From NCBI GenBank assembly GCA_947568835.1, contig OX387608.1, forward strand, positions 4,936,001-5,000,000: a DNA stretch of 64,000 bases. The letters are read 5' to 3'. Shown here piece by piece: positions 3,801 to 63,400 of the stretch. The notes under the pieces are model-generated. The model saw nothing but the letters and a program-made list of their open reading frames with translations, did no database searches and had not been told where the DNA came from. This DNA comes from Protonemura montana. Taxonomy: Eukaryota > Arthropoda > Insecta > Plecoptera > Nemouridae. Position numbers and translations under genes: made by a program. How positions within the stretch are numbered: position 1 is the first letter of the stretch; every line of letters begins with the position of its first letter.

Positions 3801-6188
3801 CGATGGAGTTGGTGGGACTGTAAAACGAAATGCAGCACGGGCAAGTTTACAGAAACCATATGCCGACCAAATAATGACGCCGATAGACTTTTACCGGTGG
3901 GCAACAGAAAATGTGTGGACTGTAAATTTTGTGTTTGTAGCCAATGAAGAGATTACAGCAAATGGCATCAAACTTAAAGAACGATTCAAAGAATTAAAAA
4001 CTATCGTAGGCACAAGAAGCTTTCATGCGTTCTACCCAAAATCGCTAACTTCCTTACATGTGAAACACTTTTCTCTTTCTGAAGAAATCAACATTGTGAA
4101 GATTGTTGAGAAAAATGAAGAAGGAGAAGAAGAAGAAGAAGAAGAAGAGGAGGAAGCAACAGCAGCAGAAATACCCGAGTTTGAGTTCAAAGACGTGGGC
4201 AGTTTCATCACTGTAGCATACAACGAAGACTGGTGGCTAGCGTGTGTTCTTGAAAAATCATCACAGTCTCTTGAACTTCAAGTCAACTTTCTACACCCTC
4301 ATGGACCAGCTCCATCATATTTTTATCCCAGTGTACAAGACAAACTAATTGTAGCTTTTGCTGATGTTTTAACACTGGCCGACCCCAACACGGCAACTGG
4401 TCGAACATACTTTTTGTCGGCTACAGACACCAACAGGGCAACAGCAGGGCTTATAAAATATGTACCTCAATAAGGTAAACTACATCTCTCTTAAGATATG
4501 CAAATTTGTACTTCATAGTAGCTATGATTGTAAGTAATGATCATTTTCTTGAATGTTGTCTTAAATTCAGTTCATATTAATTTATATTATGAATGAATTT
4601 GCAGAAAACATTTTTTTTTCTTGGAAAGTAGTAGAACACCCATCTTGATTTTTGGAACACATGATCATATGTATGTTCTGTACATATAGAAAAAAAATCA
4701 GGCAAATCAAAAATGACTCATCAGCGATATGGTCATTTTGGAAAATGCAGATGTGTAAAATCACAATTAAATTCGTATTAACATATCGTCATTTTTGTTT
4801 CCATATTCAGGTAGGGTATGAAATTACCTTTCAGATGATTTTTTTCCCAGCTCTGTAGCTCCCATAGAACCCTAGATATTGCGTAGAAAGGGTGGTCACT
4901 ACACGCGCGGGGGGCAAAATGACCCCAACTTCCCCCCCTTGTAATATCCGAACGGTTGGACCAAAAAAAAAAAAATTAAAAAATAGCCCCTAAGTCAACA
5001 AACTTAACAAGTATACCAATTTTCATCAAAATCTGGGTCGGTCAAAGTTTGAGGTGAGTGATTACACATGGAATGACCCCTTGGCCTTTCCTTCAGAGAT
5101 CCCTGGCTTAGCTCGGCAGGTAGAACTGGCAATCTACGACGGCAATCGGGAGGTTCCGGGTTTGTATCCCGACTCAGTTGCACATTTTTTCACACTACTC
5201 TCAAGTCTGTTCTTGGTTGGAGGATTTAAAATGCTCGCTCTCGTCAGAACACACGTACATTTGCATGCAAACTTGCACTTTTTTCGAGATCGATTCTTCG
5301 TTCAAGGACCTGTGTCTCCAAGAACGCTATAACTGCTTGTGCTGACCCGTCCGCTCCTTCCGCCACCCAGGAACCGACTGTTCGAGAACCTGCGCATGCT
5401 ACCGCACGCGCCCGGAGTGCAGGTCCAGGCAATCCCCGAGGACGCCATCATGGAGTCTGACGACGACGACGACAAGGCCAACCCAGACGAGCGACTCACG
5501 CAGGCAGCGCTCGACAAGCGAATCGTGCCCGAAAACGAGTTCAGCGACTCGGAGGAAGAGGGAGAGGGCGGCCGCAGGGACCAGCGATCTTTCAAGGGGC
5601 GCAAGCGGCCGCGGCTAGAGAAGCAGCCGGAGTCGAGAGTCGAGAAGATGGACGTCGATGAGAAGCCGAAGGTCGAAGAGAAGGCTGATGGCAAGGGTGA
5701 GTTGACTTTTCCAATACACATGTCTCGGTGAATATATGTTGGCGACAGCTAAATCGAAGGAAAAAACACATCTCAGCACCTTTTGCACCCAAGGAAATCA
5801 ACCCCACCCCTCAAAAACTTGACTTTCTGCATTGTATTTCTACCTAATGATCATATGTATCTTGGTCCAAGAATAGTTTTAAGAAAAACTATTTGAAATG
5901 GGTTTTGAATGCTATGTAAAGGGCTACTAAATTTCCCGACGTTTCGTAACACATACTAGTTACTTCTTCAAGGGTAAGAGCAGTCCTGACAATTTTCGAA
6001 TAACAAAAGAACCACATAAAATTATAACAATAACCTAGTTCAAGCTTCCTAAATGCATATAAATAAAAATATTTGCTAATGCATTGCCAATCAACTCTTG
6101 TGTTTTCTCTTCGGCAGGCGAAGCAGACAAGGAAAGCAAGACGGCAGTCGTCGAGGATGCAAAGAAAGAGACATCTTCCAACCCGTGA
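553..6188 (+). CDS. HDAC1: histone deacetylase 1 (class I, Rpd3/HDAC1), C-terminal three exons
   Basis: Class I zinc-dependent deacetylase that removes acetyl groups from histone lysines in nuclear Sin3, NuRD and CoREST-type complexes. Exons are 553-838, 5371-5696 and 6118-6188. Their phases join cleanly (2 nt + G gives Lys; G + GC gives Gly) and encode the last ~226 residues. The first exon carries [14 protein letters not shown], whose Tyr aligns with the catalytic tyrosine of human HDAC1. It also has [17 protein letters not shown], typical of class I enzymes. The second exon has [12 protein letters not shown] and an acidic [12 protein letters not shown] stretch, as in HDAC1/2. The tail is Lys/Glu-rich. 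The N-terminal catalytic part lies left of the window. The intron 839-5370 is interrupted by a whole DNA transposon. HDAC1 and HDAC2 cannot be separated by eye; invertebrates generally have one HDAC1/2 orthologue. Confidence 0.95.
968..1455 (+). repeat. left long terminal inverted repeat
   Basis: This is inverted relative to 4600-5080 with only small differences, mainly homopolymer length. Short antisense ORFs within it mirror those in the right arm and are not genes. Confidence 0.88.
1891..4473 (+). CDS. transposase-like protein of the 968-5080 element (860 aa)
   Basis: Single uninterrupted ORF centred between the long TIRs, so it is presumed to be the transposase. Residues ~40-109 form a Cys/His cluster (CHHKLCC, CSTC) that looks like a zinc-binding module. 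A catalytic-looking core follows: VVGDFAENY (Asp ~513), [12 protein letters not shown] (Asp ~597) and [11 protein letters not shown] (Asp ~638). The first two strongly resemble DDE-type RNase H-fold strands; which residue is the third acid is a guess. A pure Glu run lies near residues 748-760. Related proteins are familiar to me as repeated uncharacterised ORFs in arthropod and cnidarian genomes, but I cannot name the superfamily. No frameshift or stop is seen, so the element may be active or only recently silenced. Confidence 0.8.
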   Translation: MCSIGLFFEEECGPIEDLAIKSIESFNSDQQLSLALRTKCDNVKTVCHLHEKKFLRLYSCHHKLCCDPFQAHCGIVKVNGLREINAASRTKYLEIADLIPGKKLCSTCRKLLSLRLKELTTVSVLTPTKSTELDLPFVDIPCEADAVNQSLAAFGVSPINTTKLKGKSMFYSKRKFSEITQGVKKRLELVSPSNEEISKEDLTSSEECKDSIRDGSEIIAQLKEKFKTSTRSEKITILSVLPKSWSIKRIMQEFNASNHLVRKTKQLVKAQGILPSANQKAGKTLSPDCIQLIEEFYENDDVSRVMPGKKDFVSVKVGDNRVHRQKRLVLSNLSEVYRSFKDKYPDIKVGFSKFAELRPKHCVLAGAAGTHSVCVCTIHQNVKLMALGAKLPLLSDGTIKSYQHCLASLMCNPPLLNCFVGKCGNCPGTDELREWLEISFSENFIDSVTYKQWLSTDRCTLETITKPTDEFVDCFIEKCILLRNHDFIARQQAAFMQEKKANLKPGEVLVVGDFAENYSFVLQDAAQGYHWNNSQCTLHPFVCYFKPEDRDIQHLSYVVISDSLTHDTVTVHTFQKHLIRHLKQNISDVSHLIYFSDGAAAQYKNKKNFSNLCHHEVDFELTAEWHFFATSHGKGPCDGVGGTVKRNAARASLQKPYADQIMTPIDFYRWATENVWTVNFVFVANEEITANGIKLKERFKELKTIVGTRSFHAFYPKSLTSLHVKHFSLSEEINIVKIVEKNEEGEEEEEEEEEEATAAEIPEFEFKDVGSFITVAYNEDWWLACVLEKSSQSLELQVNFLHPHGPAPSYFYPSVQDKLIVAFADVLTLADPNTATGRTYFLSATDTNRATAGLIKYVPQ
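4600..5080 (-). repeat. right long terminal inverted repeat
   Basis: Reverse complement of 968-1455; it ends GGAATGACCCC at 5080. The homopolymer near 4963 is the counterpart of the T-run near 1075. Confidence 0.88.
5371..5696 (+). CDS. HDAC1: HDAC1 exon (acidic C-terminal region)
   Basis: The acceptor cgccacccag precedes 5371 and the donor G|GTGAGT follows 5696. The exon encodes [17 protein letters not shown], an Asp run, then [12 protein letters not shown] and a basic patch (KGRKRPR) that may act in nuclear import. Confidence 0.93.
5916..5990 (-). repeat. single arm of the palindromic hammerhead-like MITE, in the last HDAC1 intron
   Basis: This shares ~100 bp with 57916-58109 and 59918-60016. 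On the minus strand it folds as CCC-(T)TGAAGA-A-GTAAC...GTTAC-GAAACGTC-GGG, with distal arms GGACTGCT and AGTAGCCC. The first core base is T rather than C in this copy. Confidence 0.7.
6118..6188 (+). CDS. HDAC1: HDAC1 terminal exon
   Basis: The acceptor tcttcggcag precedes 6118. The exon encodes [18 protein letters not shown] and stops at TGA 6186-6188. The charged tail is like the unstructured C-terminus of HDAC1 orthologues. Confidence 0.85.
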
Positions 6189-25525: not shown

Positions 25526-25725
25526 CTAGAACGGTTTGGCATGTTAGAAACACCGGTTCTCGTGAGATCACCGAAGTTAAGCAACACTACGCTTGGTCAG
25601 GTTTTGGATGGGTGACCACCTTCCTTCTAGGCTAAGTGATTCACTGACATCATCCGACTAGTGTCACAGGGCTCATTATCAAAACAAAGCGTCGTTAAAC
25701 ACAATAAATATAATCAATCAATGCA
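25526..25725 (+). mobile_element. 5S-derived SINE with internally deleted body
   Basis: A complete 5S-like head (cggttctcgtgagatcaccg, gaagttaagcaacac, ggatgggtgacc) is joined almost directly to the tail (gggctcattatcaaaaca, cgtcgttaaacac). About 200 bp of body is missing. Confidence 0.85.
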
Positions 25726-27370: not shown

Positions 27371-27630
27371 TGACCCAACGCAGTGTTGCTTAACTTCGGT
27401 GATCTCACGAGGACCGGTGTTTCTAACACGCCAAACCGTTCGTTGGTCGCCCATCCAATACCTGACCCAACGCAGTCTTGCTTAACTTCGGTGATCTCAC
27501 GAGGACCGGTGTTTCTAACACGCCAAACCGTTCGGTGGTCACCCATCCAATACCTGACCCAACGCAGTGTTGCTTAACTTCGGTGATCTCATGAGAACCG
27601 GTGTTTCAAACACGCCAAACCGTTCGGTCC
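27371..27630 (-). repeat. three tandem 5S-like SINE heads (92-bp units)
   Basis: Units start at 27371, 27463 and 27555. Each contains the inverse of ggttctcgtgagatcaccg, gaagttaagcaac and ggatgggtgacc with the terminal cgaacggtttggcgtgtt. No SINE body or tail follows. Confidence 0.88.
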
Positions 27631-31583: not shown

Positions 31584-33623
31584 TTATTCATCGTCAACAT
31601 TGTCGTCGTCCGAAATATCGCACGGCACAGCGGCGTCTTCTTCCAGGCTTTGGTAAAATGGGTGATGGATCGGCGGTACATACTTTAAGAGATCTTTTAA
31701 ATCTCTGAGTTTTAATGGATTGATGGGCCTGGCTGAAGCAAACAGATGATTCTCTTTGACACTTCCGATGTTGGACGGTCGTCCAGACACCTTTGGTTTG
31801 AAATCTACTTTAAAGAAGCACCCCATCTCACTGAAGTTGTACCGAAACTGCATTTCATATGGAGATCCGGCTTCAAACTTCATCCACTGAATCTTTAACC
31901 ACTGGACTGGTTCCAGTGTGCTGGTCTGCTTACGATTGACAAAGCACCGTTTTACTTTATCGGTCGAGAAAAAGTGCTGCTTTTCCATGACATGCACAAT
32001 GAAAGGATTTTTACGTTTACATTTTCGCACATGGTTGTACCAGTCCTCTGGAACATTGACACACGAAACATGTCTTCGCGCTGCTTCGATCACACCGAAG
32101 TCGGCATCATTCGGTAGGTAACTGTGCCCAGAAACCATGAATTTGTGTTCGATGACTGCAATATTTAGCTCCGGAGCCTGCAAGAGTTTTAGTAGCGTCG
32201 CCACCATATTGAAATTCCGGTTCTGGCCGGAGCAACAGTCGCTGTACATAACGATGTGTGTGTGCGTGGGCTTTAAATGCTCCATAAGGTGCCGGATGAG
32301 ACAAGACGTTACTTCTTGCGAGCCACGTGACGCAGTACCTTCATGCCACATGTACATGTGGCCCACATTATCCGGGTAACTGTGGATCCCAAGGTTGTAA
32401 ACCCAGAGCTGACGCTTATAATAGGCTTCCCCCACGCTGAGCTCAGGCACCGGTAACGTTTTTTCGAGATCGAACGTGAAAACATACTTCGTTTCATCCG
32501 CACTTTCCTTATCTTGGCGTAAATGGACCCGTGCAGCTTCCGCTTTCTGATGGTGAAGGTTCAATGTCGCCGTCATCTCTTCCCTTGTCTCTTGGCAAAC
32601 TTCAGCATCTATCTTATTTTTCATGGAGTCGCACGTTCGGCAGGTGTCTTTCTGGCGACTTTTAAAACTAAGATTAAAATTCTCATTGAAAATTTTATCG
32701 TAGATAAATCTTGAAACTGGAGTTATACCTTTCTCCAGACAAAAATTATTTTTATAGCAATCGTACATGATAGTTGGTGTCAACGTAGGAGGCAGAAATT
32801 TCTTCCTTGTTTGATTGCGGCAGTAATGGCTCTCATAAAATGGAAAGGAGTTGACATGGGCTTCGACAGCCTCAACATTCTCACGAGAAGTTTTATTACT
32901 GGGAGGATGCTGTCCACGCTCGTCACTCCCAGGAGTGGTTTTGCCAAGGCATCTGGTTAAACGTCCGTCAGAAATGCTAAATGTACTCAAAAAAAATTGT
33001 TTGCACACTTTAACATCGACACCATCCGATTTCAAGTGATACCCGTAGGTCTTGGCCTTGGGAGCTCGTGTGTTTGCACGAGGTCGCTTTTGTTTTATTG
33101 CATTAACCGTCACAATACCAACAAGAAAAGCATTTTGGGCCCTGAAATTAGATATTTTCCAGAAAGATTCGAAATGCTTGCGTCTTTCATCCTCTGGACA
33201 CTTTTTGTGGCATTCTGCTTTGCATTTACAAGGTACATGAACGAAGGTCTTTCCGTCAACTAATTTCTTTACAGTGGAAAGATAAGCTTTTCCTGAGTTA
33301 CGGTTCGCTTTGCGTAGCGAACGCGCCCACGCAGCAGTGTTGCGCTTTCGCTTCCTTGATCTACGTTCCTCGGGTTCGGCGACAGCAGCAGGGTCCGCGA
33401 CAGCAACAGGGTCCGCGACAGCAGCAGGGTCCGCGACAGCAGCAAGAGCCGCAACAGCAAAAGTGTCCTCGGCAGGAACGGTTTCCACGGCGCCTTCATC
33501 GCCACTCGTGGCGGAGTCTGATGATGACGTTTCTTTCTCCCCTGGCTCAAAATCGGACCCGCTTGAATCACCTGTGTCTTCAAATTCCACCACAGCATTC
33601 AAGATGTCTTCGTCAGTCAACAT
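31584..33623 (-). CDS. transposase-like protein of the 31246-34080 element (679 aa)
   Basis: Single open frame filling the element. The N-terminus is acidic and Ser-rich, with an Ala-Val-Ala-Asp-Pro repeat at about residues 58-85 coded by an 18-bp tandem repeat. Cys clusters follow: CKCKAECHKKC and, later, CRTCDSMKNKIDAEVC. The core contains YSDCCSGQNRN and FMVSGHSYLPNDADFGVIEA, hallmarks of a large family of arthropod transposon ORFs (I believe the DUF7869-type region, from memory). By position, the Asp in YSD and the Asp in NDADFG are candidate metal ligands. No disabling mutation is seen. Confidence 0.78.
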   Translation of the reverse strand: MLTDEDILNAVVEFEDTGDSSGSDFEPGEKETSSSDSATSGDEGAVETVPAEDTFAVAALAAVADPAAVADPVAVADPAAVAEPEERRSRKRKRNTAAWARSLRKANRNSGKAYLSTVKKLVDGKTFVHVPCKCKAECHKKCPEDERRKHFESFWKISNFRAQNAFLVGIVTVNAIKQKRPRANTRAPKAKTYGYHLKSDGVDVKVCKQFFLSTFSISDGRLTRCLGKTTPGSDERGQHPPSNKTSRENVEAVEAHVNSFPFYESHYCRNQTRKKFLPPTLTPTIMYDCYKNNFCLEKGITPVSRFIYDKIFNENFNLSFKSRQKDTCRTCDSMKNKIDAEVCQETREEMTATLNLHHQKAEAARVHLRQDKESADETKYVFTFDLEKTLPVPELSVGEAYYKRQLWVYNLGIHSYPDNVGHMYMWHEGTASRGSQEVTSCLIRHLMEHLKPTHTHIVMYSDCCSGQNRNFNMVATLLKLLQAPELNIAVIEHKFMVSGHSYLPNDADFGVIEAARRHVSCVNVPEDWYNHVRKCKRKNPFIVHVMEKQHFFSTDKVKRCFVNRKQTSTLEPVQWLKIQWMKFEAGSPYEMQFRYNFSEMGCFFKVDFKPKVSGRPSNIGSVKENHLFASARPINPLKLRDLKDLLKYVPPIHHPFYQSLEEDAAVPCDISDDDNVDDE
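33375..33455 (-). repeat. 18-bp in-frame tandem repeat
   Basis: About four copies of a gggtccgcgacagcagca-like unit coding for alternating Ala, Val, Asp and Pro within the 679-aa ORF. Confidence 0.8.
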
Positions 33624-33884
33624 TTTATTATTTCGTTGTTATCTGCAGACAAAATTCGGACAGACACAATATTAGATCTTGCAAAAGTAATACATAACCA
33701 AACTTTTTTTTTGAAGTTTCCCTTTAGAGCATTATTTTTTACTTACAGCTTCGCAAGTTAAGCAAATATAGTAAAGAGAACACTATTTAGTAATACCACC
33801 ATAATATAACCCATAAGATAACGCATAATAACCGTGGTTACTCACCATAACAGTCTTTTCTTGATCTTGCTGTCACTTTACATT

Positions 33885-39400: not shown

Positions 39401-42400
39401 TGGTGAACTCTCGGCTCATCTTCCATGGACTAGAAAACGCGATAGGAACATTAAAAAATAACGAAAAAAATGGCGAATGTTTGAAAAAAATATTTAAGAA
39501 CTAGGTTAGTTTTACTGGTTTTCTAAAAACTTCCTAAAAGACTAGGAAGTAGTAAGCATGATTAGCAAAAGGTCGAAAAAATTAGTTGTTTTACTTCGCA
39601 TTCAAAAAGCCAGTTTCAAACATTTTTTTTCAAAACTAGTTCAAAACTAGATTAGATAAAGTAGAGATTAGTTGTAAAATCTTAAAAGTGAATATTTAAT
39701 TCCTTATTTCAATCAGATTGTCTTTGTTTTTGAGATGGATGAATGGGAGATAGAACAAGAATTGCCTATTGACTTTTAAACTAAACAAATTTTGAATTTT
39801 GCAATCTGATTTAGACTATTTTTGTAGACTATTTTCTGTAATTTTGAAGTATTTCTTGTAACCTATAATTCAAGAGAAATTCATTCAAACTTCAGATGGT
39901 TAATCTTTAAGAATGTGATTGATTGTTGCATGTTGCAGTGATTGATTGCACCTACCTAACCGAACAAGATACAAGAATGCAAGCATATTTCACTGAACGC
40001 TCCAAACATCCAAAAGTCAACGTAAAATAAAAATTCTCACCACTGGCACTTGAGTTTGTTTCCCATCGTTCTCATCATCGACCCCGTTCTCCACCGGCTT
40101 CTCTTCTCCCGGCGGCGACAACGGGATCTGCACGTAGTCGTTCTTGACAATCGGTTTCAACTCCGCTCCGTTCTTCTTCTCTGTTCCGTTCACCTGAGGC
40201 TTCGGCTTGTACGCTGTCAAGGTCGGGTCCTGGTACTTGGCCGGCTGCCCTTTCTGCCACAAGATGGCGGCGTCGGTCTCTTCCTTTCGCTTGCGCTTCT
40301 TGTACGACTGGTTGTTGCGGTAGACGAGACACAGCGAGAGGATCACGACAGCGGCAAAGAACGTTGTCAGGATCAGGAAGATCGCTAGAGACAAAACAAT
40401 CATTACAAATCAAAACATCCTAAGCCCATTTTAGTATTTTGATCTGATATTTGTGAATTTATTAATAACTGAGAAGTAACACTTTTCAAGGCATGGCTTC
40501 TGCTATGAAAAAACTTTCTATGAATAATCTAGCAAAACTAAGCTAATGTTGCAACAAACTGTAAGTTGATTTGTTGTACATAAACAAAAGCTTAACTCGT
40601 GGGACTTGAATTTATGCGAAGACTAACTGTTTATGGTGCAATTTGGAAACGTACTGGATTTACTGGACCAGTAAAAAATCATACTAGATTAAGGGCAACT
40701 GGAGATTCTTTTCTCATTAGACTTTGCCAAATCCAGTAAAATTTTAATGAAAGAAGTCGTGAAGAAAAAGATTGTATTCTAGTAGGAACTCGATGATAAT
40801 TATCTGATGTATTGATTGTGACATTTAAAACCTATTTACCATCAACGATCGATCGTAAATTGTGTAAGAAAATGTCTTATTAACTAAATCACATGTTCTG
40901 TAAGAATTTAAGTTACCAAATAACTTTCACTCTTCTTATACCAGTGTATATTGTCTGAACTGTCGTAAGTATTCGTCCATTGTCACCATAATAAAAAGTA
41001 GCTGACAACTGCCTGTTAGAAGATGTCGCGAATGTTTGAGTTCCGTTACTGGAACTATTTGCTTCACTGGACGTGTACTGGAAACCAATACTGGATCCAA
41101 TACATTTACGTTGAAATACCATATTTCACAGTCTAGACTGCAGTCGAGTACTGAAGAGAAATTAATCTGTCGGTGCTTTTATTCCTTTCCCAATTACACC
41201 GCCAAAATTTACAGAGCAAGAAAAGAGACCAGAGAGCAAGTAACTCTGCCAGTTGAACTTGTGAAAGTTGGACTGGGTCAGAATCACATGCCCAGTCGAA
41301 CACGTGAAAGTTGCACTGGGGCAGAGTCACATGTCCAGTCGAACACGCCAGCAGAGAGACAGGAAGAAAGGTCCCTGACATTGTAGAGGAAAGTCTTCTC
41401 ATGGCTCACCTTGCGTGGATCCCGTCTCGATGATGGATGCGTCGGTGTAGGTCGACTTGTACTCGATGCGCCTGGGCGGGTCTTCCACCCATGCCTTGTC
41501 CAGCCCCTGCAGAATCATCGTTGGCTACATTACGCTTGGGTCAAGTCCTTGCCCCACCCACCCACTGCTACGCCCAGAAAGGGGCCGACTCACGTACAGC
41601 ACAACTGCTGAGCTTGTAACGAGAATTTGTTGCGGTTGCTTAACGGTTAAACTGTCGCAAGTTCTCGGAATTTAATGGATTTGTTATAAAATATTCAGCG
41701 AGAAGTTTCTTCAGCAGTTGAATGCTTGTTTAATTCAGTGTTTGTAAACATTTACTTATTTGGGAACAAATAAACAGCTTACGTTATCTGAGCAGTTTGA
41801 AAATAAGCTTGTAAATTGTTAGAATATATTAATTATTTTTGATATCCTAACGTGTTTGTGTGTTTGTTACATTGTTGGTACTTTTTAGCATTTTTTCCGC
41901 ATTTACCAGCTTTAAAGTATGACAGCAGCGTCGAGCCTTTTCCTCATATAAGAGGCAATTCAGAAAGTTTTGTAAGAACCAGTTTAAAAATCTAAAATAC
42001 TGAGATCAAATATTGTGCAATTGCAGTATGCAGTCATAGACTGTCATGCACTAGACATACTTTTGAAATAAGATTTAATGAAAAGAGCAGGCCACTCCGT
42101 GTGCCAAGGAAGTTAGAACATCTTGGCAGAGCAAATACGCATTTAACGCTAATTAAATGGCATGCACTAGCAAAGAATTAAACATGCTTATGATAAAAAA
42201 AAATAAGTATCAACAAACACATTCTAAGGCAAAGAATCAATCAACGTTCGCATGCCGGTGGGGATTTTTGTCAAAACAAACTCAATAAGTACTTTTTGTG
42301 TATATTAAGTGTTTGCTCTTTTGTGAAAGTTTTGCAGTCCTACGAAGAACAGAGTAAGACTTTCAGCCTGAAGATAACGGAGCAAACTCCGTTGAAACGT

Positions 42401-45400
42401 CGAGAAACAAAGTCCTACTTATGATTGATTGATTGTTGGAGTTCAACGACATACTGTTTTGACATCTGGCCTTGTTGCACTGGTCTAATGACCTAACCTA
42501 ACCTAGTCTTAGGCCTGCAAACCTCTTACAAGTAAGCAAACTTAGTGAATCCACAAAAAAAAATCTACCAATGGCTCTACAAACCTCAGAAAAAAACAAA
42601 AGAAAAGATTAAACAAACTCGACAAGCTCTACAGTGGTGCAAACTAAGCGTTGTGGTACGCGAGCAGGCCCCTTTCGAGCATCGGGAGGCTTACAAGACT
42701 CATGTTGAGCGTCAGACCGGACTGTGGTTTGTGCACGAGATCAAAGTCTGCGCACTGGGCGCTTCGTACGCCAGCTGCGTTGACAACTTCGACCTCCTCG
42801 CTGCCAAACTTGGTGAACAGCATGTACTCTTCCAGCGGCTTCATGACGTGGTGGTTCACCTCGACAACGACGTCTGGGCAGGGAGAAAACATTCGGTACA
42901 GCAGACACAAAAATTAGATCACAAAGCAAGACAGATCATAGAAGCTCTGATATTAAAGGTTCTCAGGGTCAGCTAATTCAGAAAACATCTTAACAGATTT
43001 AAAGCGGACGTTTAATTCTGGGTATGTTGTTATCCTAATTGCCTTCCAGCTCGTCATGTATAAAACAAAGTTCGAGTAATGTTTTAAGTAATGTTTCTGA
43101 GTCACTCACTGGACAGACACCCGCTGTAGCTCTTGTAGGCAACGAATCGTGGGTCGGCAGAGTTGAAGCCTCCAACTTGCACCTGGTTGGCCCCGAGTTC
43201 TCCTACCTTGACGTCGGTCATGCTCATCACTGGGATCAACTCGAGGGGGACTTCCTCCCGGTCGATCTGCAAGCAAAGCCAGGACCTTCAGAAAAAACCG
43301 GTATCTCCCTATGAGGAATGCTCACTGGCGAATCAGATCATGCTCAGATCTTAAGCAAATATTAAAGAAATATTTTTATAAAAAATTTATATATTTTGCG
43401 GTGATGGCAACACAATATTTTAAAATAAAATAAAACGCATACCAGCCAGCTAGCTCGGGTTTTCTGAGTGGCTCGCTAAGAACCTAACTGTTCGTTAACT
43501 TGTTAGTTGCTTGGCAACGGCCAATCAGAGGATCTATTTTGTTTGTTAATGGTCTGTTTATTACTTAAATGCCACTGGAAAACCGGGACTTAATCCATTT
43601 TCTAGCGATGATATCTTGGAATGTAATGTCCACATTAATATGGATGTTTCTGCATACTCAATTTAACGAAACCTACTAAATCAATAAGATTGCACAGTTT
43701 GAAATATGAGTAAAAAATAAATATCAAAATTAGAGCAAACCCCTAGTAACCGGTTGTTTTTGCAATGATCTCCGTCAACTCACGAGTAGAACTGCCGAGT
43801 CGTTAGTTCTCTGGTAGTACACGGAATGTCGTGCTCCGTTGAGGAAGTGCCTGTCCTTGATGGTAGCACCCATCGAGCGCTGATCCACTCCACCGTCTCG
43901 GTCCTCCTCGAAGACGAGGTACCCCTCGCCAGTTAGCGCCACCAGAAGGTAGTAGCTGCTCCTGTGAGATCCAATTTCAATGTTTTTTTAATTAAAAACT
44001 TAGGATACACACACGGATTAATTCGGAGGTTGCTAATATGTACATTTGGAATTGAATGAATGATTGATCGATTATTTGTACATATACATTTGGATAGCTA
44101 GCTATCACTAATTAGCTTTAACTGCACACTGTCAGGTAACAGTTAGGTTTTGCCAAGAATTGTGCTGAAATCATCATGAAGAATTCATCATGAAGGTTAC
44201 TAATAATATGGGGCAGCTGCCAAAACATCTCTTTATCCTTTCCAATTGACCATTTCTACTTTGATGCGTTACGTTTCCTTAATTTATCTTCCCAAGTTGA
44301 CTATTTTACATTTTTAAAGAAAAATAATAAAAATCTACAAATTGCTTGTAAAATATGTATACAAATTTTTGAAAGACTTAAATATCTGTTTTGATCGTAA
44401 TTTGTGGAGAATTAAAAAAGTTACTTTTCATAAATGTACTTTGATTTGCTTTAAAAGCTGAAAATTTGTAGACCAGATGGTTGCTCCCTTACGAGTCGCT
44501 CTTCCAAAATCATAAAATGTGACGAACACAAAAATTCAAATGAAGGTGAGTGATTGGCCGGGAGAGCGGTTTCCTTACGAGCTGTCAGTTTGCAGAAGTA
44601 GCAGCACGGTACGATGCTGTCGGTGATCCGAACTGGAGAAAGCCAGCTGCACTTTCACCTGGTTCACCGGGCTGTCCAGGAGGTACTTTCTCCTCAACAC
44701 AGACTCCCCTCCAAAGTCGGCACCTTTCTCTGTCGGTCACCGAAAAACCTTGTCATAAGTAAGAAAATCGGCGACCTATTCGATCATAAGCAACCAATTA
44801 CACTTTTAAACAAAGTGCCGTTTGAAATGAAATCAAACTTTAAAACGCTTCTGGCCAAGTTGTTGTCAATTGATTTGTAATGAATGAGTCTGTGATTTCC
44901 CTCGCCATTCATTGACTCACCCGTCGCGCAGAGCTCTCCGTAGTACGACGTGTGCTTGCAGTCGCACGAACTCTCCCCCTTCGCAAAGTCCTCGATGCAG
45001 ATGCCCTGATTCTTGCACGGGACCTCGTCACACTTCATTCGACAGCCTGAACGAACGCCCCCAGGGTCTGAGAAGAACGTTACACTCTCAGTCAAGTTAA
45101 GTTACAGCTTTTTATTATTTATTTAATTTGTCTTTCATCTGGTACATTAACAAAAAAGTATGGTATTTAACTAGATATCAGGAGAGAGAAACCTCCACCA
45201 AGTTTTGAAAGTTGTCTCAAATTATGTATGTATAACATTCTCATTTGTACAATTGAAAAACATTTTAAACAACAAAACACTTAATAACAATTTAAAATAA
45301 TACAAGATCAAAATTGATTACACCCCAAGGGAATTTACTTTAGGAAAATTCAAATAGGCAACCTTAAAATCATGTCATTTTTAAATGCTTGCTTTTCAAA

Positions 45401-48400
45401 TTTCAAAACTAGAAGGAGGTTTGTTTTCTATCTATATTTAGTTAGGCACCTTGCTCTTTTCAAAATGTACTGGTTAAAAAAAATAAAAACAACAAACTCT
45501 GCTACCTCAAAGTATGCCAACGTAAGAAACCAAGGAAATTAGCAACATTTCATGTGGCGAGCAGCTTACCAGGACTGACGGCAAACTGCATCTGAGCTTC
45601 GAGATTGACAACGTGGTCTCCGATTTTGAGCCCGCGAATGCAGCCGACGTATCCATCGAGAGCCAGAGCTTCGGGCCCTACGATGAGATTCGCAGTGTCG
45701 TAGCCGCCGATGTTTGTCTGGAAGTACTCTGTGGGGGGCGCAGGTGGTCGCTGGGGCGCCAGCACCTCTGGAACAAACACCAACGTTTACGCATGTTACG
45801 CCGTTTTATTAACTATACTGTCGTTGACTGTATAGGTTATAGTTCGAAAAAAAAGGTTATTCAAACTACTCATAACTAACAACCAACCGAACAGACTAGT
45901 TGTCAACAAACATTTATTGTTTTGGCACTTTAATGTTTCCATTTCAAAATTATAACACATGAACTAATTAATAACCGCCGAGTGATTTCCAGGGCAATCC
46001 CAATTAAACATCACTATTTCATCACTCAAAACTGCAGTTAATTTATGTTGAATTCAACGTTGGATATTTAAGATTCAATGCCAAACACCCTAAGCACCCT
46101 TGGCTTCCTGGTACTTACCTAGCTCTGGGTTGGACCACGGCTTGTTAGCGTATTGCGTGAGGAGCAAGACGGGTACGGCGAGAGAGTTTTTCTTCTCGTT
46201 GACGTGGACCACGGTCTCGCCCGCCTTGCGGATGATCGCGATCTGCACCGACTTGCCGCTGTTCAGACCTACAGTTTAAAAACACAGAGATGCTTGATTG
46301 CGTGATGGTTGCGTGAAACTCTGTCTCCTGAAGATGGCGAGTTGTGCCTCGCTGAAACGTCCAGACTTTTGGCCATTTTTAGGGCCGCAAACCTTTTCAA
46401 ACTAGAGCACAACCGGCACATCAAAACAACAGAAGTGCTTATTGCTTATGGCATCGAGATGCTGGAATTCAGTTTGGTTCTTTGGTCTGCCGAGAAAAAC
46501 TGATTACAAAGTAAGCAAAATTCCTGTATTGCAAGAGTCTTGATTTCTTTGGGACTGGATGCAAAAAGCAGAGTGTAAGCTCGACCCCCATAAATCTTGG
46601 GGTCAAATCGTTATCATCATGGTAAAAACCACTGAAAATCTGTAAGATAATAGCTAAACTCTGAGCTTGAGGTTAAATTTAAACTCTGCTTTGAGATTCT
46701 GGCCCCAGGTGTTTCTAATGTGGTACTTCAATCCTTCAAGTAATGGATGGAAAGAGAAAAACTTACTAAAAATGCACAACTATACAAGGAAACAAGTTCG
46801 GGACTTCCCGGCTGACAAAGGAGAGTCACGAGTTCATTTCTCGATTCACTTGGCCATTTTTTCCAGCTTCCCTCCTGTTCCAAATACCTGGAAACTCGAC
46901 GGCAATGCTCTTGATTTCGTTGCCAACGTTGAAAGCAAAGACGACAGTGCGTCCGTCGCGGATGTATATCTGCACGAAGTTATTGAGGTTATCGTTGGCG
47001 TAGATGACGAGGGCGTCTGTTGAGTACGTGCGTAGATTCACGAGGATGTCCTCGTTGAGCAGGTGTTTCAAGAACTGCTTCTCCTCATCAGTCACGTCGC
47101 CGAGGTAGTTGCGTTTGATGTACGCGTCGGGCGCGACAAACGTCATTGCGTCTGAGTTGATGTCTGCGGAGAGACGGAGAATTTGAGGATTTCTCAGAGT
47201 GACTGAGTCGTTATTTTACGAGCTGATGTGTGTGTGAAACCCAAAACATTTGTATTTAAACGTCTATATTTTTATTAAACCCATGAGGAAATGGATTATT
47301 ACAATTAATTGTTTCATTTAGCTGTATCTCAATTACCTGTAAGGCTTGTATTTTTTAACCTTGACAAAGTAGCTTAAAACTGAAGAACACCAACTCATTA
47401 TAATTTTGCAAAGATTCACAACTAACCTCCTAGAACTAAGTATGTTTAAAAAAACTATTGGCAAAAGAGCTTTTTAGTTACAAAATTTGTCATATTAAGG
47501 GAACTGAGAAAAAAAACACAAATATCCATAATACAATTTGCAGAAACACATCTTTGGGGAAAGAAAACAGATAAAGACACTTGAAAAGTTTCCCCGAAAC
47601 CCATTGCCACTCACTGGTTTCGCAGTACGTTCCTACGTGCGCCCACGGGTTCTCGCACACGCATTGGAATGTGCTCCACAGTTCCGTGCACTGCGCCCCG
47701 TTCTTACAAGGACTGGGATCACACGATGGCTTGCAGTCCTTGATGATCTCCGACAGGTGGACGCTCATGTACGAGTATATGTCCAGAATCTCGCCGTTGA
47801 CCACCAGACCGCGGAAGCAGCCGATGAGTCCTTGACGCACGGAACTGTTGGCCAGCAGATCTCTGTAGGGATGAAACGAAGGTTGTTTTTAGCTAAGTCC
47901 GTATATGAAGTACAGTGGCATATGTTGGGTATGGTTGCGGTCACAACTACAAAAATTGTAAGAAGTGCCCTTATAAATCTCTTGCGACTAATAAAGGAGA
48001 CACTTGTCATGAAAGGATGTCTAGAAAATGTGTATTTTAAATGAACCATCAAGCTACAGAAAAATTTATTTTCCCAAGTTCATGCAATTATTTTAATTTG
48101 TGTATTTTACAATGTTATTATTGGGTTTAAAGGCTTTCCTTTCAATAAGCTGACATAGAATCATACATGAGGGCAAAGAAAAAAGATTTAGGTCTTAATC
48201 TTAAACCTTTAAAACCTTTAAAATCTTAAAATTTAAACCTAAATCTTTTTCTATGTGTAGGGAATAATTGTTTAAAGTTGGAATTTGTAACAGTGAAATT
48301 AGTAGTGGTACAAGTCAGTTAGACAGCAAAACAGCACAACTAAATGGTTGCTCTTCATTGTACAAGCTTTATGCATACAGTCCATGCTGTCAATATGCAA

Positions 48401-54400: not shown

Positions 54401-57400
54401 AGTTCAACTTAAGGTCACAGGAAGTGCTGAAAATAGCAGGTTCTTATCAAAGAACTGAAACTAGGGGCCACAAAACTTCGTCATCATTACTCTGAGGGTA
54501 AATCTGTCCAATCCAATCAAAACTGTAATCGCAGCCTGCCAATCTGCTTTAAATCCTGAGGTCATACGTCTTGGATTTTGCCCGAGAAGAGTGTTCACCC
54601 AACCTGAATCCGAACGCCATGTCGAAGCTGTCCTGTCGCTTGTTCTCCCACCAAATGTGGGACGACGGGAATGGGAAGGTGATCGGTATCGTCTCGACGT
54701 CAGCCTCGTAGATTTCCGGCTCGAGGACGCCGATGTAGTGCACCTTGGGGTTGGCTTTCTTCAACTCGTAGATCACCGAGATGTCGTTGAAGAACACATA
54801 CTTGAGAGAGCCTAGAGCATACGGGGGGACGTTGTCAAGTAAACATCGGCCATAAAACATACCACATTTGAAGAATCTTGGTAAAGTTTGATTTATGACT
54901 TTTGATTTATTGATAATTGGTGTTTAACGACGCACTGTTTTGACAACTGGCCCTGCAGCACTGGTCTAATGGCGTCGGTGAATGAGCGGATGATTATGAG
55001 GATGATGATGAACCTAACCTAGCTTAGAAGAGAGGAGGGGAAAACTGGTGCCGGCACGTAGCCTACTCATGTCGAATAGCACCAAGGGGATCACCGGCTT
55101 CCGAAGGACGGTACAACGCGAACATCAGGATTCCTCCACAAATCCTTGCTGTCGAGAGGTTGATAAGCAAGGCTAGTGAAGTTGCTGTACTAACTTTCAT
55201 CTCTCCAACCTCTCTCCCGAACAGAACTGGTAATTTTTTTTTTATTTACTTTTTATTGTCCCTTTGATCCGAAGATATAAGACAGTCAAACAATCTCTTT
55301 ACAGATATAAAAAAGCATATGAGATAACATAACAGAAGACAATCACAATGAAATGTTTTTACAAATCAGTTATGTGTTTGATGGTCACCCATCCAATACC
55401 TGACTCAGCGCAGTGTTGCTTAACTTCGGTGATCTCATGAGAACCGGTGTTTTCATGACGCCAAGCCGTTCGGTTTTATAACTTTTAATTTTGATTGATT
55501 GTTTTCCTGTACTTGCATGGTGCAATGAGAATTATTGACTAGAAATAACAAAGAATTATCTTACAAAGAGATGAGTCGTCATATGTTAAAACAATCTCCA
55601 ACACGCTATTTTGTGGACATCTTATAATTTGAGAGCAAAGTTTTTATCTTTTCAATGAAAAACATAGAATTTGGCAGTGCTTATGAGATCCAGGCATGAC
55701 CAATATTTTGTTTTTCCAATTGTGTGGAAAACGTACTAACGAGGTTTTTCACAAATTTCTTTTTCCCATGACCCTTGCGCTGTGGGAATCTCGCCTACAT
55801 AGTTACTCATTAAGGATTCTGTTGAGGAGTAACTAGATTACAAAGAAAATATCAAGCATAAGTCTGGTTTCATTTGAAGAGCAATTCATATGCTATGTAT
55901 TTGAGAGAAGCTTTTCTGTTGTGGTTTGACCCTACTGAATTTCTTGACTTAATTAATAGATAAATCTACTTGTTATTAACATCTTATAATAAGATTTCTA
56001 TTGAATCAATTTTTATTAAAATCTACTTCAATTATAATTACTTCCAAGAGACTTTTTCGCAGTGCCAGAGTGTTTCGGGAACAACCAATGGAGTGAAATG
56101 AGGTGGATGTGAAGCCATGAATGTGTATCCAGCAAATTTTGGAATTCGAAAACCGTCATGACATAAACCCATTACCGTTGAGTGTAGGTTATAGGTAGAG
56201 AAACAACGTCAATGTTACAGTCTCCGCGTGAATGATGGCCGCCAAATGACGACCTTACCGACAAAAATGCAGAGTACCGGAACGTCACGTTAAGTGGAGC
56301 CACTGTCGTATGAAATTTAATTTCAATATTTCTCGTAAGTTACTCGCTTTTTAATATCGTTACGTGTATATCAATCGTTGAGGTAAACATTGATGGAGAT
56401 TTTTGAGCATGAAAAGTCTCGAAAGCGAGTTAACCTACGAGAAATATCGAAATTAAATTTCATACGACAGTGGCTCCACTTAAAGTGATGTTCCGGTACT
56501 CTGTATTTTTGTCGGTAAGGTAGTCATTTTGCGGCCATCTTTCACGCAGAGACTGTAACATTGACGTTGTTTCTCTACCTATAACCTACACTCAACGCTA
56601 TCACCTTATAAGCTTTGAAATTATCTGCTCCCTTACCAGCAAAGTTGTTGTGCGACGCCAACCCGTTCCTATTGGCCAAGTCAGGCCCGCCCCCAATGTA
56701 TATCTCGGGATCGATATACAAGTGATGTCGTTTGCCGGGCAGTTCTAGAAGCTTTGTTTCTTCGTTGAGCACGATGCGGATATCGTGGTTGTGGTGGACG
56801 ATCGTCAGGTTGTTCCAGTAGTTGTTGGTCACGTCGGTGCCGATCGTAGTGTGCAGGGGTCCGTCACCAAAGTCGACCTCCAAAACGATGGTTCTAGGGG
56901 CAGGGAGAGAGGCTGCCAGTTAAATGGTTCAAAGACTCGTGTCAACTTTATTTTACCTAAGCACTAATTTTTTAAATAATAAACTTAGTTGTAAATAGTT
57001 TTTTCAGGAGCTGTCAGTTATCTAAAATTTAATTTGGGCGAGTGAAAGGTGTTTTCTGCTATTCTTAGCAATATAATTGATTGATTTTGGTATAATTTTA
57101 TATCATTATGTCAAATAAATTTAGTCTTCACACGATACAATACTGAGGTTAGTTTTATCAAAATCTCGCCTCCTGGTTGAAGTATTAGTTGAAACTATTG
57201 CCATGACGACTTCACATGCAGTGACATTCAGATGTTTCTGTGAGTTAGAGGTCAAACTTATAGTTAAACATTTTTGTAAAACCTGACCTTCGTATTCAAT
57301 TTTTTTTTGTAAAAAAGTTAATTTTAGAAGCAAAATGTAGACACAATGGTTCATCTTATTTGTGTGTCAGCCCTTATGATGGGCTAGTGTTTATTTTTTC

Positions 57401-60400
57401 TTACTGAAATCTTGTAATTTCAGTAAATCGTCTCTTAAATGGACCCTTCAACGAGCTTCAATCATCTTCAATGAAGTTCAAAGCCAAACAATTAACACAC
57501 AATTCAAACGGAAAGAGCTAGAGCAGTGGCACAGTGCACCCGTTACAGTGGCGTACCTGTTTTTTATGGCAGCGGCGATGTAGTGATGTTTGAACGGCTC
57601 GCCACTGGCGTAGAACAGCGCGGAGTCGTCGTACCGCGTCTTGAAGAACAAACTGATTCGGTTCAGACTTGACTTGACGCGATCTCTCCAGTCGTAGACT
57701 CGGTACGAGATGTACGAAGAGCCGCGGAGGGTGAGGACCGTACCGGCTGGGAAAAAGATTGGTTAAAATTACAGTCTTTTGTTGTTTAAGCATCAAGTTC
57801 TTGGCTTCTAGCGCTAATTTTGAAACTGTCTTGACGAAAAATGCTCAACGAACAACTACTATATGATGGTTTTTGGACTCATGTCTACTTAATTTATCCT
57901 TAGCACAAGTTTTTAGAAAAACTATTTGAACTGGGTTTTGAAGGCTAAGTAAAGGGCTACTAAATTTCCCGACGTTTCGTAACATATACTAGTTACTTCT
58001 TCAGAGGACTGCTCAAACCTCTGAAGAAGTAACTAGTATATGTTACGAAACGTCGGGAAATTTAGTAGCCCTTTACTTAGCATTCAAAACCCAGTTCAAA
58101 TAGTTTTTCTAACTACTATATGGGTGACTCCGTGTCACATGAATACATTTTGAATTATTTTTCAGCCACGGACTCTGATTTTAATGCAATTTGGTACACA
58201 CACTAACATTGTGGCTTGTAACAACTGTGATTTTTTTCAATTTTTTCTGACAGATATTAAAAAAAATATGAGGTTAAGAGATTTGTGTCCCGACGCCCCG
58301 AAACGAGTACCACTGAAGTGTTTTTACTAAATAACTCCTTTCCTAATTTACCTAGAACACTGGAAAAAAGCTAATTTTAAAGCTTTTGATGAGACCTTTT
58401 AAGATAATACCATAAACACATACTTTTGATACATACTTATTTAGATTTTTTCAGTCTAGATCTCCTTGAGGGCAAAGGCAATTTGAAAAAATGCTCCTAA
58501 TAACTACCGCTGCTATGCCAACTACTTGGACTACTAAGTAATATTTAATATGTAATGTTCCTGGTTGGTTCTTACTGTAAATGTCGCATTGTTCCCCCTC
58601 GTACTTCATGCCGTAGCAGTCACAGGTCAGACTGTTGTAGTGATTCACACACTTGCTGCCAACGAAGCACAGGTTCTCTTTGGTCTTGCACCTGAAACAA
58701 GGTCGAGGATCACAGTTAACATGCGTTAATGGTCAACTACGTGGTTCACACTGATCTGAAATAACCTGGATAGAGCACAGGATCCAGCCAGCTAATCTAA
58801 AATAACCTGGATGGAGCATAGGATACAGCCAGCTGATCTCAAATAACCTGGATAGAGCATAGGATCCAGCCAGCTGATCTCAAATAATCTGGATAGAGCA
58901 TAGGATCCAGCCAGCTGATCTCAAATCACCTGGATAGAGCATAGGATCCAGCTAGCTGATCTCAAATAACCTGGATAGAGCATAGGATCCAGCCAGCTGA
59001 TCTCAAATAATCTGGATAGAGCATAGGATCCAGCCAGCTGATCTCAAATCACCTGGATAGAGCATAGGATCCAGCTAGCTGATCTCAAATAACCTGGATA
59101 GAGCATAGGATCCAGCCAGATGGTCTCAAATAACCTGGATAGAGCATAGGATCCAGCCAGCTGATCTCAAATAACCTGGATAGAGCATAGGATGCAGCCA
59201 GCTGGTCTCAAATAACCTGGATAGAGCATAGGATCCAGTCAGCTGGTCTCAAATAAACTGGATAGAGCATAGGATCCAGCCAGCTGATCTCAAATAACCT
59301 TGGTAGAGCATAGGATTTAGCGAGCTGGTCTCAAATAACCTGTATAGAGCATTTTAGAGCATTAAGCTCTTGTTGATAAAAGTCAAATGGCCAACATTTT
59401 GCAAATAAAAGAAAAGTCAACTTCAAAACGGTACATTTTGACCTTTTATGTTTTTAAAAGTACCTACATGGGACTTGTTCTATGCGTTATGGAGAAAAGG
59501 CCGTTATTTGCAAGCATGGACGAATCGGCATAACGGATAAAGAATAATCTTGTTATTCCCTATTAGATGTTTTTTGGGTTAGTGAGGAAGAGACAGGAGA
59601 GAGTGACTTGTTGGTGTAAGCCGAAGGAGTGAGAGAGTGAGACTTACTTGTTGATGCAACCCTCGACGACGTTCTCATGTTTGGTGGCGATCAGTGGTTT
59701 GATTGGCAGTAGGTCGGAGGCCGCTTTACCAGCGCTCAGGCGCATGCTCCGAATGCACCCCACGAACGACTCGATGATATACTTTACCCCGTGTAGTTTC
59801 TCCTCGCTGCTCAGGCCTGCGCGCAAGAGATTAGGAGCTTAGGGAATGGACTGTGCAGAAAATGTTTGTTGTGATTGGGAAATGTTCACCAATTACAAAT
59901 AAAAACAAGCCTAAGTGTCAAGAAAAACTATTTCAAATGGGTTTTGAATGCTAAGTAAAGGGCTACTAAATTTCCCGACGTTTCGTAACAGGTACTAGTT
60001 ACTCCTTCAGGGGGACGGACACTTTGCCAGGGGACACTTTGCCAGGCTGTTAAGGTTGGGTAGAGGGGGTGGGCAGGTAGGCATGCCATCGGAGTGATTG
60101 ACAGTTTGCCGGGCTTTGCTTGTGAGCTCCGTCGCGGTCAAGACATGTCCCCCCGGTTTAGGAAGAACTATGCTCCGTGGGTACCATGTCAAAAGTTAAA
60201 GAAAAAATGAGAATACATACAACACGACACTATCGCTGTAATAGCGCTGTCGAAAAAGCGCTGTAAATTCTGTACGGATGGCCGCAGACACCTGATATTC
60301 AAACAACCTGATATTCAAAAAATTCAACGAGTGCCAAATTCAAAAAATTATACATCCCTGATCTCCAGCGTATAATATGAGTGCCTTCGATCAATGCACT

Positions 60401-63400
60401 ATTGTGGTGATACCTTAGAGGTGATACCTATTCATAAAACAACAACAAACAACATTCAACAAATACGCTGTTAAAGCCCAGCTAGAGTTTTAGTTTTAGA
60501 ACCAGTTATAGAACCAGTTTTATCGCAACACAATGGATTTCATCGTAACTTTTTGTAAACTGTTAACGATACACTATAACTAATGTGAGTTTGCCACTTT
60601 TTGGGGATCTGATATCATAGAGTCCACCAGGCTGACTGTTAGTTTTTGGTTTTTTAATGAGCTCGTCAGCTAAAGCTAGTAGTATATATTAGATGTAAAA
60701 ATAAAATAATAGGCGGTAAGGTAAGACTAACACAACTATATATATGCTTTTATTTCAGAGTAACAATATCAGTGGAATTCTTTAAAATACTCACACGACT
60801 GAGTAATGTTAGGTTAGGTCACATGCACGTTCAGAATACTATCGCTGTTAACACAAAGTATTAATGCATTTTTCTTCTTTTTTAGTCTGTGACTTACAAT
60901 GGTGAACTCTGATAAATGATTTTAAATTAGGGTTGTAGGTTTTGAGCTATGAAGGAAGGGTCAGCATCGAACGAACACAACTTAACTTCGACTTTGCGTT
61001 TTATGTATTCTCATTCTTTCTTCAACTTTTGACGTAGTACCCACGGAACATTATTCTTCCATAACCGGGGAGACATGTCTTGACCGCGACGGAGCTCGCA
61101 AGCAAAGCCCAGCAAACTGTCAATCACACCGATGGAATACCTACCTGCCCACCCCCTCTACCCAACCTTAACAACCCCTTTACAGCCTGGCAAAGTGTCC
61201 CCTGGCAAAGTGTCCTACACTCACTTCTTCAAGGGTTAGAGCAGTCCTTACCCTTACAGTCCTTACTTCTTACCCTTGAAGAAGTAACTAGTATATGTTA
61301 CGAAACGTCGGGAAATTTAGTAGCCCTTTACTAAGCATTCAAAACCCATTTAAAATAGTTTTTGTTAAAACTAGTGCTAAGGATAAATCAAGTAGACATG
61401 AGTCTAAAAACAATCATAAAGCCTAAGTGTTGGTTTTCTATGTTTAACAAACAAAAATCATCATGTGATTGGCTGTTACCAAGCAAATAACAAATTAACG
61501 GACTGTTAGATTCTCAACGTACCTCTGAAAAATGAGCCTTTAGGCTAACGGATGAAAAAAACATTGCTGGTAGTTTATAAATTTGCCGCAGGAGCGCGTT
61601 GGCATAGCGATCGTATAAGAGAGAGAGAACTGTCGAAGATCAGCGGTGCCAAGCTTCAAATAATGTCATTTAACGGGTGTGGTCCAAACTATTTTAGCTT
61701 TTAGGCGAGGGAAATGCCACAGAATTAAGCCTGCTATCGGAGAAGTTAGATTAATAACTTAATTTCTAGTGGTACTTGGTCTGGATGCAGAAATACGGAG
61801 AATTTTATTGCAATGCAACAAGGAAATTCACATTATTTCCTTCTTTTTTCGCTTCTAAAAACACTGCACGTCATGTCCAATTGGCATTTTTCGTGTGACG
61901 CAAGTTAAGCAACACTGCGCTACACCATTTTATTGGATGGGTGACCATTTTTGCAATTATAATAATTTCGAGAAGTAAACTTGCATAGAAATTGCTGTAA
62001 AATGCACTTCATCAATTTTGTCCACCCACCGATTGCTTGGCCGAGTGTACAGAAGTGCATCACGTGAAGAGTTGAATTGCAAATATAAAAGGATTACATA
62101 TTTCATAATTTCAACTCGTGATGTCGCTGTCGCAACACTTTTACTCGCTTTGGTGCGAAATGAAGAACCGAAAAACGTGTGCATTGAAACAAGTTAATTT
62201 GAAATAGTTGAAGATTTAAGATAAAACGCTGTGTTACATGAGATTATCAGATGGCTTTTATTGGTGCAACTACAGCCAGATTAGACCATCTGATAACGAG
62301 GATGGTATAACAATAAAGCTTTGTTGCCGAGACCGTATTTGGCACAAATATTTGCTAGCGTGAAAGCAGTTTGATAAGAGGCTAATTTTACCCCCCCTTT
62401 GCAGGGAAGTGTTTGAACAGCTCATTTCAGGAACGATATCTGGTGAGAGGTTTGTTTGTGTGCGATAGATCAGAGTAAGGGCAAAGACCCCTTAATATTT
62501 GATAAAGTAACTGTCAATATTATGTTATTATTATTTGTGGTGTTTAACGACGCACTGTTTTGACATCTGACCATGCGGCACTGGTCTAATGGCGTCGGTC
62601 AATGAGAGGATGATGATGAGGATGATGATGAACTTAACCTAGCCTAGAAGAGAGGAGGGGAAACCCGGTGCCGGCACGTAGCCTACTCCTGTCGAAGAGC
62701 ACCAAGGGGACCACCGGCTTCACGTCCCTTCCGAAGGACGGTACAACTCGAACAGCAGGATTCCTCCACAAATCCATGCTGTCGAGAGGTTGATAAGCAA
62801 GGATAGTGAAGTTGCTGTACTAACTTTCATCCCTCCAACCTATCTCCCGAATAGAACTGGTCATGTGTATGATAGTCATCCATTCAATACCGGACTCAGC
62901 GAAGCAACACTGCGCTGAGTCAGGTATTGAATGGGTGACCATTCACAAATAATTTTTGAGTCCCCGTTTGGGCAACAATTATTGAGAGGGTTATAGTGTT
63001 CCTAATAATAAAATACCTCGCGTATTGCAAGCGTTTGCAATTTAGATCAGAGTACACATAGCTGAATTCAACATCAGATACAGCATATGACAGTGGCATA
63101 TAACAATGACAGCATATGTTACAAAAACTGATTTCCTGAAAGTTCCTCATCAAGACCGATTGTTGTAAAGCTAAAAATTGTAATTGTAAAAATTTTTTTT
63201 GCACAGTTTTTTTTTTAGTTGTGTCCATATGTCACTACTAGGGGACAAAAACAAAAGAATATAAAGCGGAAAATTGTTGGAGAAAACTCGAAAAATCTTT
63301 TTTTTCTGATGACTCCGTTTAAAAGAAAAGGAAATAAGTTTTGAGATTTGAAAACATATTTGTTATGTGTTTAATGATAGTGCTAACTTCCAGTTTTCAT

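Follow-up and report, generated by a model that had tools for sequence, protein, structure and literature searches.

Introduction

Minimal type I hammerhead ribozymes of Penelope-like elements (PLEs) were reportedly described by Cervera and de la Pena in 2014 and by Lunse, Weinberg and Breaker in 2017. Here we report a hammerhead-like fold in 64,000 nucleotides (nt) of the genome of the plecopteran Protonemura montana (contig OX387608.1, positions 4,936,001 to 5,000,000, called the window below), with many relatives across that genome. The fold most likely belongs to an old remnant of a known kind, a PLE pseudo-long terminal repeat (pseudo-LTR) that carries a minimal hammerhead. PLE hammerheads lacking helix III have been reported (PMC6155905, PMC7761336). 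The anatomy described for PLEs comprises a pseudo-LTR that includes the first codons, an inverted pseudo-LTR, an optional tail and target repeats of 8-10 bp (PMC3846280). In Poseidon of Anolis carolinensis (PAc), the hammerhead lies at the start codon and the ribozyme is protein-assisted; in vitro, reverse transcription is initiated internally, both target strands are cut and extended, and the main template is the uncleaved RNA (PMC11167929).

Like the minimal type I hammerheads of PLEs, the fold described here has helix II and a probable helix I, lacks helix III and lies in PLE-like pseudo-LTRs, and dimers have been proposed for both (PMC6155905, PMC7761336, PMC11167929). In the copies that form helix II, a single additional base separates this helix from A9, a departure from the textbook core. 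Compared with PAc, it comes from a different host, its elements are known without their reverse transcriptase, and the start codon is lost in the window copy and absent in one family of copies (PMC11167929). It shares a type I hammerhead with animal non-LTR retrozymes, some of which have a weak helix III and are more active as dimers (PMC7229834). However, those are tandem repeats with canonical cores (PMC7229834), whereas the copies here are head-to-head fragments holding a coding start.

Results

All the pieces that the initial annotation of the window had read as a hammerhead-like fold are present (Table 1). CTGAAGA (42368-42374) is followed by an extra T (42375), by a perfect helix II of 7 bp, in which AACGGAG (42376-42382) pairs with CTCCGTT (42387-42393) across the loop CAAA, and by GAAACGTC (42394-42401); the outer arms AGTAAGACTTT and AAAGTCCTACT pair at 10 of 11 positions. 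The type I core, CUGANGA ... GAAA ... UH, is complete, and self-cleavage after H17, here C42401, is predicted. Helix III has no room inside one molecule, with GAAA, C, G, U and C following one another without a loop. A minimal type I core without helix III, as the annotation had proposed, is of the kind reported from PLEs, and its idea that the self-complementary ACGT would favour dimers gives a plausible active form. When the RNA of 42330-42425 was folded alone, the gain over shuffled sequences was modest (z -1.86; 9 of 200 shuffles folded equally well).

The fold is repeated throughout the genome. A loose pattern of it gave 1,251 matches against 163 for the pattern reversed; a strict form containing ATG gave 195 against 0; and the window's own form, with up to three mismatches, gave 14 copies against 0 for the reversed control. 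The common architecture is 34 nt long (CTGAAGA, one base, helix II, GAAACGTY) and is found in hundreds of copies, seven of them in the window. These dispersed copies have helix II and a probable helix I, as in the minimal hammerheads of PLEs, and no examined copy has helix III. In a simple scan of the window, five places had a paired middle, and four of these (42368+, 46328+, 58021+ and 57974-) have the 34-nt architecture in common, with its one extra base and with GAAACGTC at the end. The fifth, CTGATGA..GAAACA at 47065-47091 (-), lacks GAAACGTY, lies inside an exon-like open reading frame (ORF, 46826-47215) and was taken as a chance match. A covariance model of the fold, whose alignment held the forms of the first four copies so that these match by construction, added 61276+, 59977- and 5938-. 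A search of a phage collection gave zero matches. In an alignment of 47 copies, CTGAAGA (columns 1-7) and AAACGT (columns 28-33) never vary and G27 and C34 are kept in at least 90%, an invariance that is partly by construction, most copies having been found by patterns that fix those letters.

The copies fall into at least four families with differing helix II stems: GTAAC/GTTAC in family 1, GTCGGCG/CGCCGAC in family 2, GACGAG/CTCGTC in family 3 and GGCRGAG/CTCYGCC in family 4, to which the window copy belongs. We compared 77 distinct copies (60 distinct strict-ATG forms, 13 distinct copies of the window's form and six family 1 copies picked by hand, with two duplicates merged), and also 47 of these picked by hand to span the families. 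In the 77 copies, 81.6% of the helix II cells were paired against 60.6% in shuffles, a value reached by 0 of 2000; in the 47 copies, pairing was 84.2% against 62.2% and covariation 0.657 against 0.243, neither being reached by any of 500 shuffles. When the partner strand was shifted, pairing in the 47 copies was at most 53.2%. In the textbook register, with helix II directly on A9, it was 35.3% against the 84.2% obtained with the extra base, so that on this point the fold is not a regular type I hammerhead. The slide control and the differing stems argue against an effect of kinship on the shuffle comparison. Helix II is, judged from these alignments, a real RNA helix. Columns 8 and 27 are U-G in 42 of 47 copies and U-A in one, with no change on both sides, which is neutral as to an extension of helix II or a pair with G12.

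The extra base is constant. Among 100 matches listed for the loose pattern, all on one contig (C1) and mostly of family 1, a helix II of at least 4 bp is present in 79 and absent from 21, and each of the 79 has exactly one extra base. For the strict ATG form, helix II is formed in 76 and not in 24 of the 100 matches listed; these hold 60 distinct forms, of which 39 form at least 4 bp, all with one extra base, and 21 do not. The extra base does depart from the textbook core, as first noted, but with 79 of 79 helix-forming matches having it, it is not peculiar to the window copy. A limited literature search found no description of a base inserted between A9 and helix II.

In families 2, 3 and 4, CTGAAGA ends with the A of an ATG, the extra base supplies its T, and its G opens helix II. 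A common frame (M..KRR..FLGPQ-like) runs from this ATG in the three families; MSAPSPTKRRLFRSFLGPQ, MAKRASPKRRYFWHFFGPQ and MAERTPQKRRETKSFLGLK are peptides from better-kept copies of families 2, 3 and 4, respectively. Thus the core overlaps the start codon of the element in most families (three of four). Family 1 has A instead of T at this position and lacks such a frame. The frames are short, the longest having 74 codons. In the window copy, the start codon has changed from AUG to AUA. This copy is the sole one of the 47 with A-U at the first pair of helix II, and so the helix was kept while AUG turned into AUA.

Helix I is less uniform. In a MAFFT alignment (A1) of the window copy with 11 of its 13 sister copies (L066 and L070 left out), 9 of 10 columns of distal helix I were paired in the window and 1-5 pairs, of 3-10 lettered columns, in the 11 sisters. 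We therefore rejected distal helix I as a family feature. The arm pairing that the annotation had taken for it is private to the window copy and is most simply a product of fold-back insertion; of the covariation that the annotation had looked for, helix II shows it over the families together, and distal helix I is without support. Proximal helix I mostly has three or four pairs in families 1 and 2, and the picture in family 3 is mixed. Among 41 distinct copies with at least five of six helix II pairs, its first three pairs were formed at 77%, against 59% when arms were exchanged between families.

The fold lies in arms that are arranged head to head, one long and its partner often truncated, with outer ends in common. 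At the 42-kb locus, local alignments of the direct arm to 10 of the 13 sister copies scored 40-71, and the arm is also seen in A1. The truncated inverted arm scored 49 against L063, compared with a maximum of 21 among 200 shuffles. The direct arm is ended by a dispersed repeat that resembles a short interspersed element (SINE): of 41 genome matches of 42300-42480, 39 fall in the portion that starts at 42408, and the other two are the locus itself and one fold copy.

Arm ends were taken from BLAST tables, with 40 of 489 candidates scored for family 2 and 40 of 74 for family 4; they are accurate to within a few bases, less so for the old family 4, and three of the family 2 pairs are one tandem duplication. 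Outer ends of 68 family 2 arms fell at q114-117 (46 arms) or q119-132 (21), the remaining one being the query itself. Their starts fell mostly at q9-15, at the CAGTC before the core (41), with one at q18, 24 further in and two at q1 from the query locus; in family 4, the CAGTC that precedes the core by 10 nt is the start of 23 of 46 arms. Not one arm has its start at, or 1 nt to either side of, the base that follows the predicted cut (0 of 68 and 0 of 46), and a few start past it, by 2-5 nt in family 2 (3 of 68) and by 3-7 nt in family 4 (4 of 46). The clustering of insert 5' ends shortly before the fold, with none falling within 1 nt of the cleavage point, agrees with the uncleaved template reported for PAc in vitro (PMC11167929).

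Truncated family 2 arms often start at either of two places, near the ATG at q21-25 (7 of 68) and on the 3' strand of helix II at q40-44 (6 of 68, of which one duplication accounts for three), perhaps because reverse transcriptase pauses at helix II or because the palindromic helix affects the alignment. Three family 2 pairs with equal scores, 4,978 bases apart (G000:C12:6708938, 6713916 and 6718894), are probably a segmental tandem duplication carrying the insertion.

Family 1 adds further parts. A shared extension, or tail, of about 50 nt past the usual end is present on 4 of 12 arms listed. The window holds a family 1 pair (57908-58007 and 58018-58117) that forms a 100-nt inverted repeat, 97% complementary with 10 nt between, with the tail on its left arm and a 12-bp direct repeat, AACTACTATATG, at both ends; this insertion (57854-58122) looks much younger than the 42-kb copy. 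Pseudo-LTRs with the first codons, an inverted copy, an optional tail and target repeats, as expected of a PLE, are thus all found among the copies, the tail and target repeat in family 1 only. The arm anatomy of families 1 and 2 agrees with the pseudo-LTR, inverted pseudo-LTR, tail and short target repeats described for PLEs (PMC3846280).

Three fold-back pairs, L040:3489-3603, L025:1441-1520 and L051:3579-3651, match the microRNA models MIR4374, mir-955 and mir-1204, all below the gathering score (MIR4374, E 3.8e-11). We take them to be matches to a long hairpin, and such pairs are a trap for small-RNA annotation in this genome.

Table 1. Positions of the fold, its arms and its other copies in the window.
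Feature	Position	Strand	Basis
Hammerhead-like core	42368..42401	+	Sequence, pattern counts, covariation among relatives
GAAA of the core	42394-42397	+	Sequence
Self-complementary ACGT, possible partner a second copy only	42397-42400	+	Sequence
Predicted cleavage site	after C42401	+	Sequence
Distal helix I, 5' arm (window copy)	42353..42363	+	A1 column pairing
Distal helix I, 3' arm (window copy)	42409..42419	+	A1 column pairing
Direct arm of the probable pseudo-LTR relic; begins about 5 nt upstream of the core and runs up to the SINE-like repeat	42363..42424 (end uncertain, 42407-42427 in different alignments)	+	Local alignments, A1
Truncated inverted arm, head to head with the direct arm	42309..42350	-	Local alignment
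Dispersed SINE-like repeat ending the direct arm	42419..42480	+	Genome matches
Second copy, family 3, ATG kept; no inverted arm detected upstream	46328..46361	+	Scan and covariance model
Family 1 copy, right arm of the 100-nt inverted repeat	58021..58054	+	Scan and covariance model
Family 1 copy, left arm of the inverted repeat, carries the tail	57971..58004	-	Scan (start given as 57974) and covariance model
Family 1 copy, C3 changed to T	61276..61309	+	Covariance model, outside training set
Decayed family 1 copy	59977..60010	-	Covariance model, outside training set
Decayed copy of the fold	5938..5971	-	Covariance model (E 6.8e-05), outside training set
Target-site repeat AACTACTATATG, left (first AA may be the element's end)	57854..57865	.	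12-mer twice in window
Target-site repeat AACTACTATATG, right	58111..58122	.	12-mer twice in window

The 42-kb copy looks to be within an intron of a host gene, antisense to it. This gene lies on the minus strand. Of its exon-like ORFs, at 42.65-42.88, 46.8-47.2 and 47.5-47.9 kb, the third has an EGF domain above the Pfam cut-off and the second a laminin G match slightly under it. The annotation had placed the fold in an axotactin-like intron, which needs correcting as to strand: the fold is on the strand opposite to the coding one, and the pre-mRNA of the gene would carry only its complement.

Elsewhere in the window, matches to 5S ribosomal RNA (rRNA) above the gathering score lie at 15233-15353 (-), 25535-25637 (+), 27512-27628 (-) and 55360-55474 (-), with one further match each in L013 and L065; they are probably a 5S-derived SINE. 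Long open frames are present at 15902-17761 (+), which is reverse-transcriptase-like by eye, and at 1882-4473 (+), 20577-24836 (-) and 31584-33638 (-).

Discussion

The fold, arms, tail, target repeat and frame together lead us to assign the feature to a PLE. We put the probability at about 0.86 that it is the relic of such a retrotransposon, consisting of two head-to-head pseudo-LTR pieces that were later cut by a SINE-like repeat.

Several results weigh against this assignment. The Rfam hammerhead models had zero matches in 41-44 kb of the window even at E up to 10, an outcome that the annotation had itself listed as counting against a ribozyme; at the gathering score, the whole window gave four 5S rRNA matches and zero hammerheads, and 8 loci with copies gave 17 matches and zero hammerheads. 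Helix II pairs were changed on both sides in 6 of 7 cases, which is not above chance (reached by 185 of 500 shuffles), and the number of pair types was weakly above shuffles (22 of 500 reach it). In the window's subfamily alone (13 copies), helix II pairing did not exceed that of shuffles (90.1% against 88.0%; 282 of 2000), and covariation is therefore claimed for the families taken together. The window copy has one pair of proximal helix I and its subfamily mostly two, which makes for a weak helix. Of 10 sisters aligned to the inverted arm, four scored above the shuffle maximum, one equal to it and five below. Two narrow regular expressions for GIY-YIG gave zero matches in 74 sequences (359,416 bases, partly overlapping), and no reverse transcriptase ORF was seen beside any copy. 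Finally, conservation of AAACGTCG could be partly coding, for K-R-R.

Two pairs of copies bear on the search for a full-length element. At L073, two same-strand family 1 copies 3.9 kb apart enclose frames of up to 171 codons, none of them PLE-like by eye, and this candidate was rejected. Two same-strand family 4 copies 2.9 kb apart (G000:C2:12619558-12622616) may bound a fuller PLE.

In the strongest of the rival explanations, the conserved string is kept mainly by coding constraint, as a start codon and a basic N-terminal peptide with a hairpin and without a ribozyme. The ATG and the K-R-R codons do coincide with core bases in families 2, 3 and 4. However, CTGAAG is kept although it stands before the ATG, helix II changes on both sides at the cost of an amino acid (GCG..CCG against GCA..CTG, P against L), and family 1, which is without the frame, still keeps CTGAAGA, helix II and GAAACGTC. 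We consider a mainly coding origin of the pattern unlikely.

A retrozyme (a tandem repeat that is non-autonomous, carries a canonical type I hammerhead and is processed into circular RNA) would share the type I-like core, and some animal retrozymes are reported to cleave well only as dimers (PMC7229834). Yet retrozymes are head-to-tail repeats of 150-450 bp, and here no same-strand neighbours closer than 1.4 kb were present among the places listed (100 of 195; 40 of 74 candidates). Helix III was found in no copy examined, and three families have the frame from AUG in common. On the arrangement of the copies, among the matches listed, we rejected the tandem reading, and a retrozyme of any sort is very improbable. 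Chance resemblance in AT-rich intronic DNA, for which the modest stability of the single fold and the absence of an Rfam match might speak, is contradicted by the 14 close relatives against 0 for the reversed pattern and by the covariation of helix II across families, and has next to no probability.

If the copies are PLE pseudo-LTRs, a mode of insertion can be proposed. A minimal type I fold, with helices I and II but without helix III, would lie a few bases downstream of the start of the pseudo-LTR, and the core of this fold would hold the start codon of the element, core A9, the extra U and the first base of helix II forming AUG. Transcription would start at the CAGTC just upstream of the fold, as its position suggests and its sequence, which we take to resemble an initiator. 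Two RNA copies, or one copy with the protein of the element, would pair via the self-complementary ACGU to make helix III. Cleavage would then occur after GUC, 25 nt downstream of the AUG, and the RNA so cut would no longer be translated. Reverse transcriptase would start inside the first 100 nt or so of the ORF on both sides of the cut target, and such an insertion would leave two pseudo-LTR arms meeting 5' end to 5' end. Head-to-head arms would be the outcome if the two target strands are each cut and then extended from a start inside the template, as reported for PAc in vitro (PMC11167929). The window copy, with its AUA, its fully paired helix II and its antisense position, is most likely a passive fossil.

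Hundreds of copies in at least four families allowed two genomic tests, of the constancy of the extra base and of the 5' ends of the inserts. The steady +1 core built on a start codon and the statistics of the insert ends are what goes beyond the routine here. A bolder reading, which we hold only tentatively and think doubtful, is that in the PLEs of this animal a single structure serves as both ribozyme core and initiation codon, in which the constant extra base is the U of AUG and the fold acts as a one-molecule switch between mRNA and non-coding template. If this is true, a ribosome starting translation must unfold the ribozyme, cleavage removes the cap together with the AUG, and either dimerisation or the element's own protein operates the switch, whose +1 core is unlike that of textbook hammerheads.

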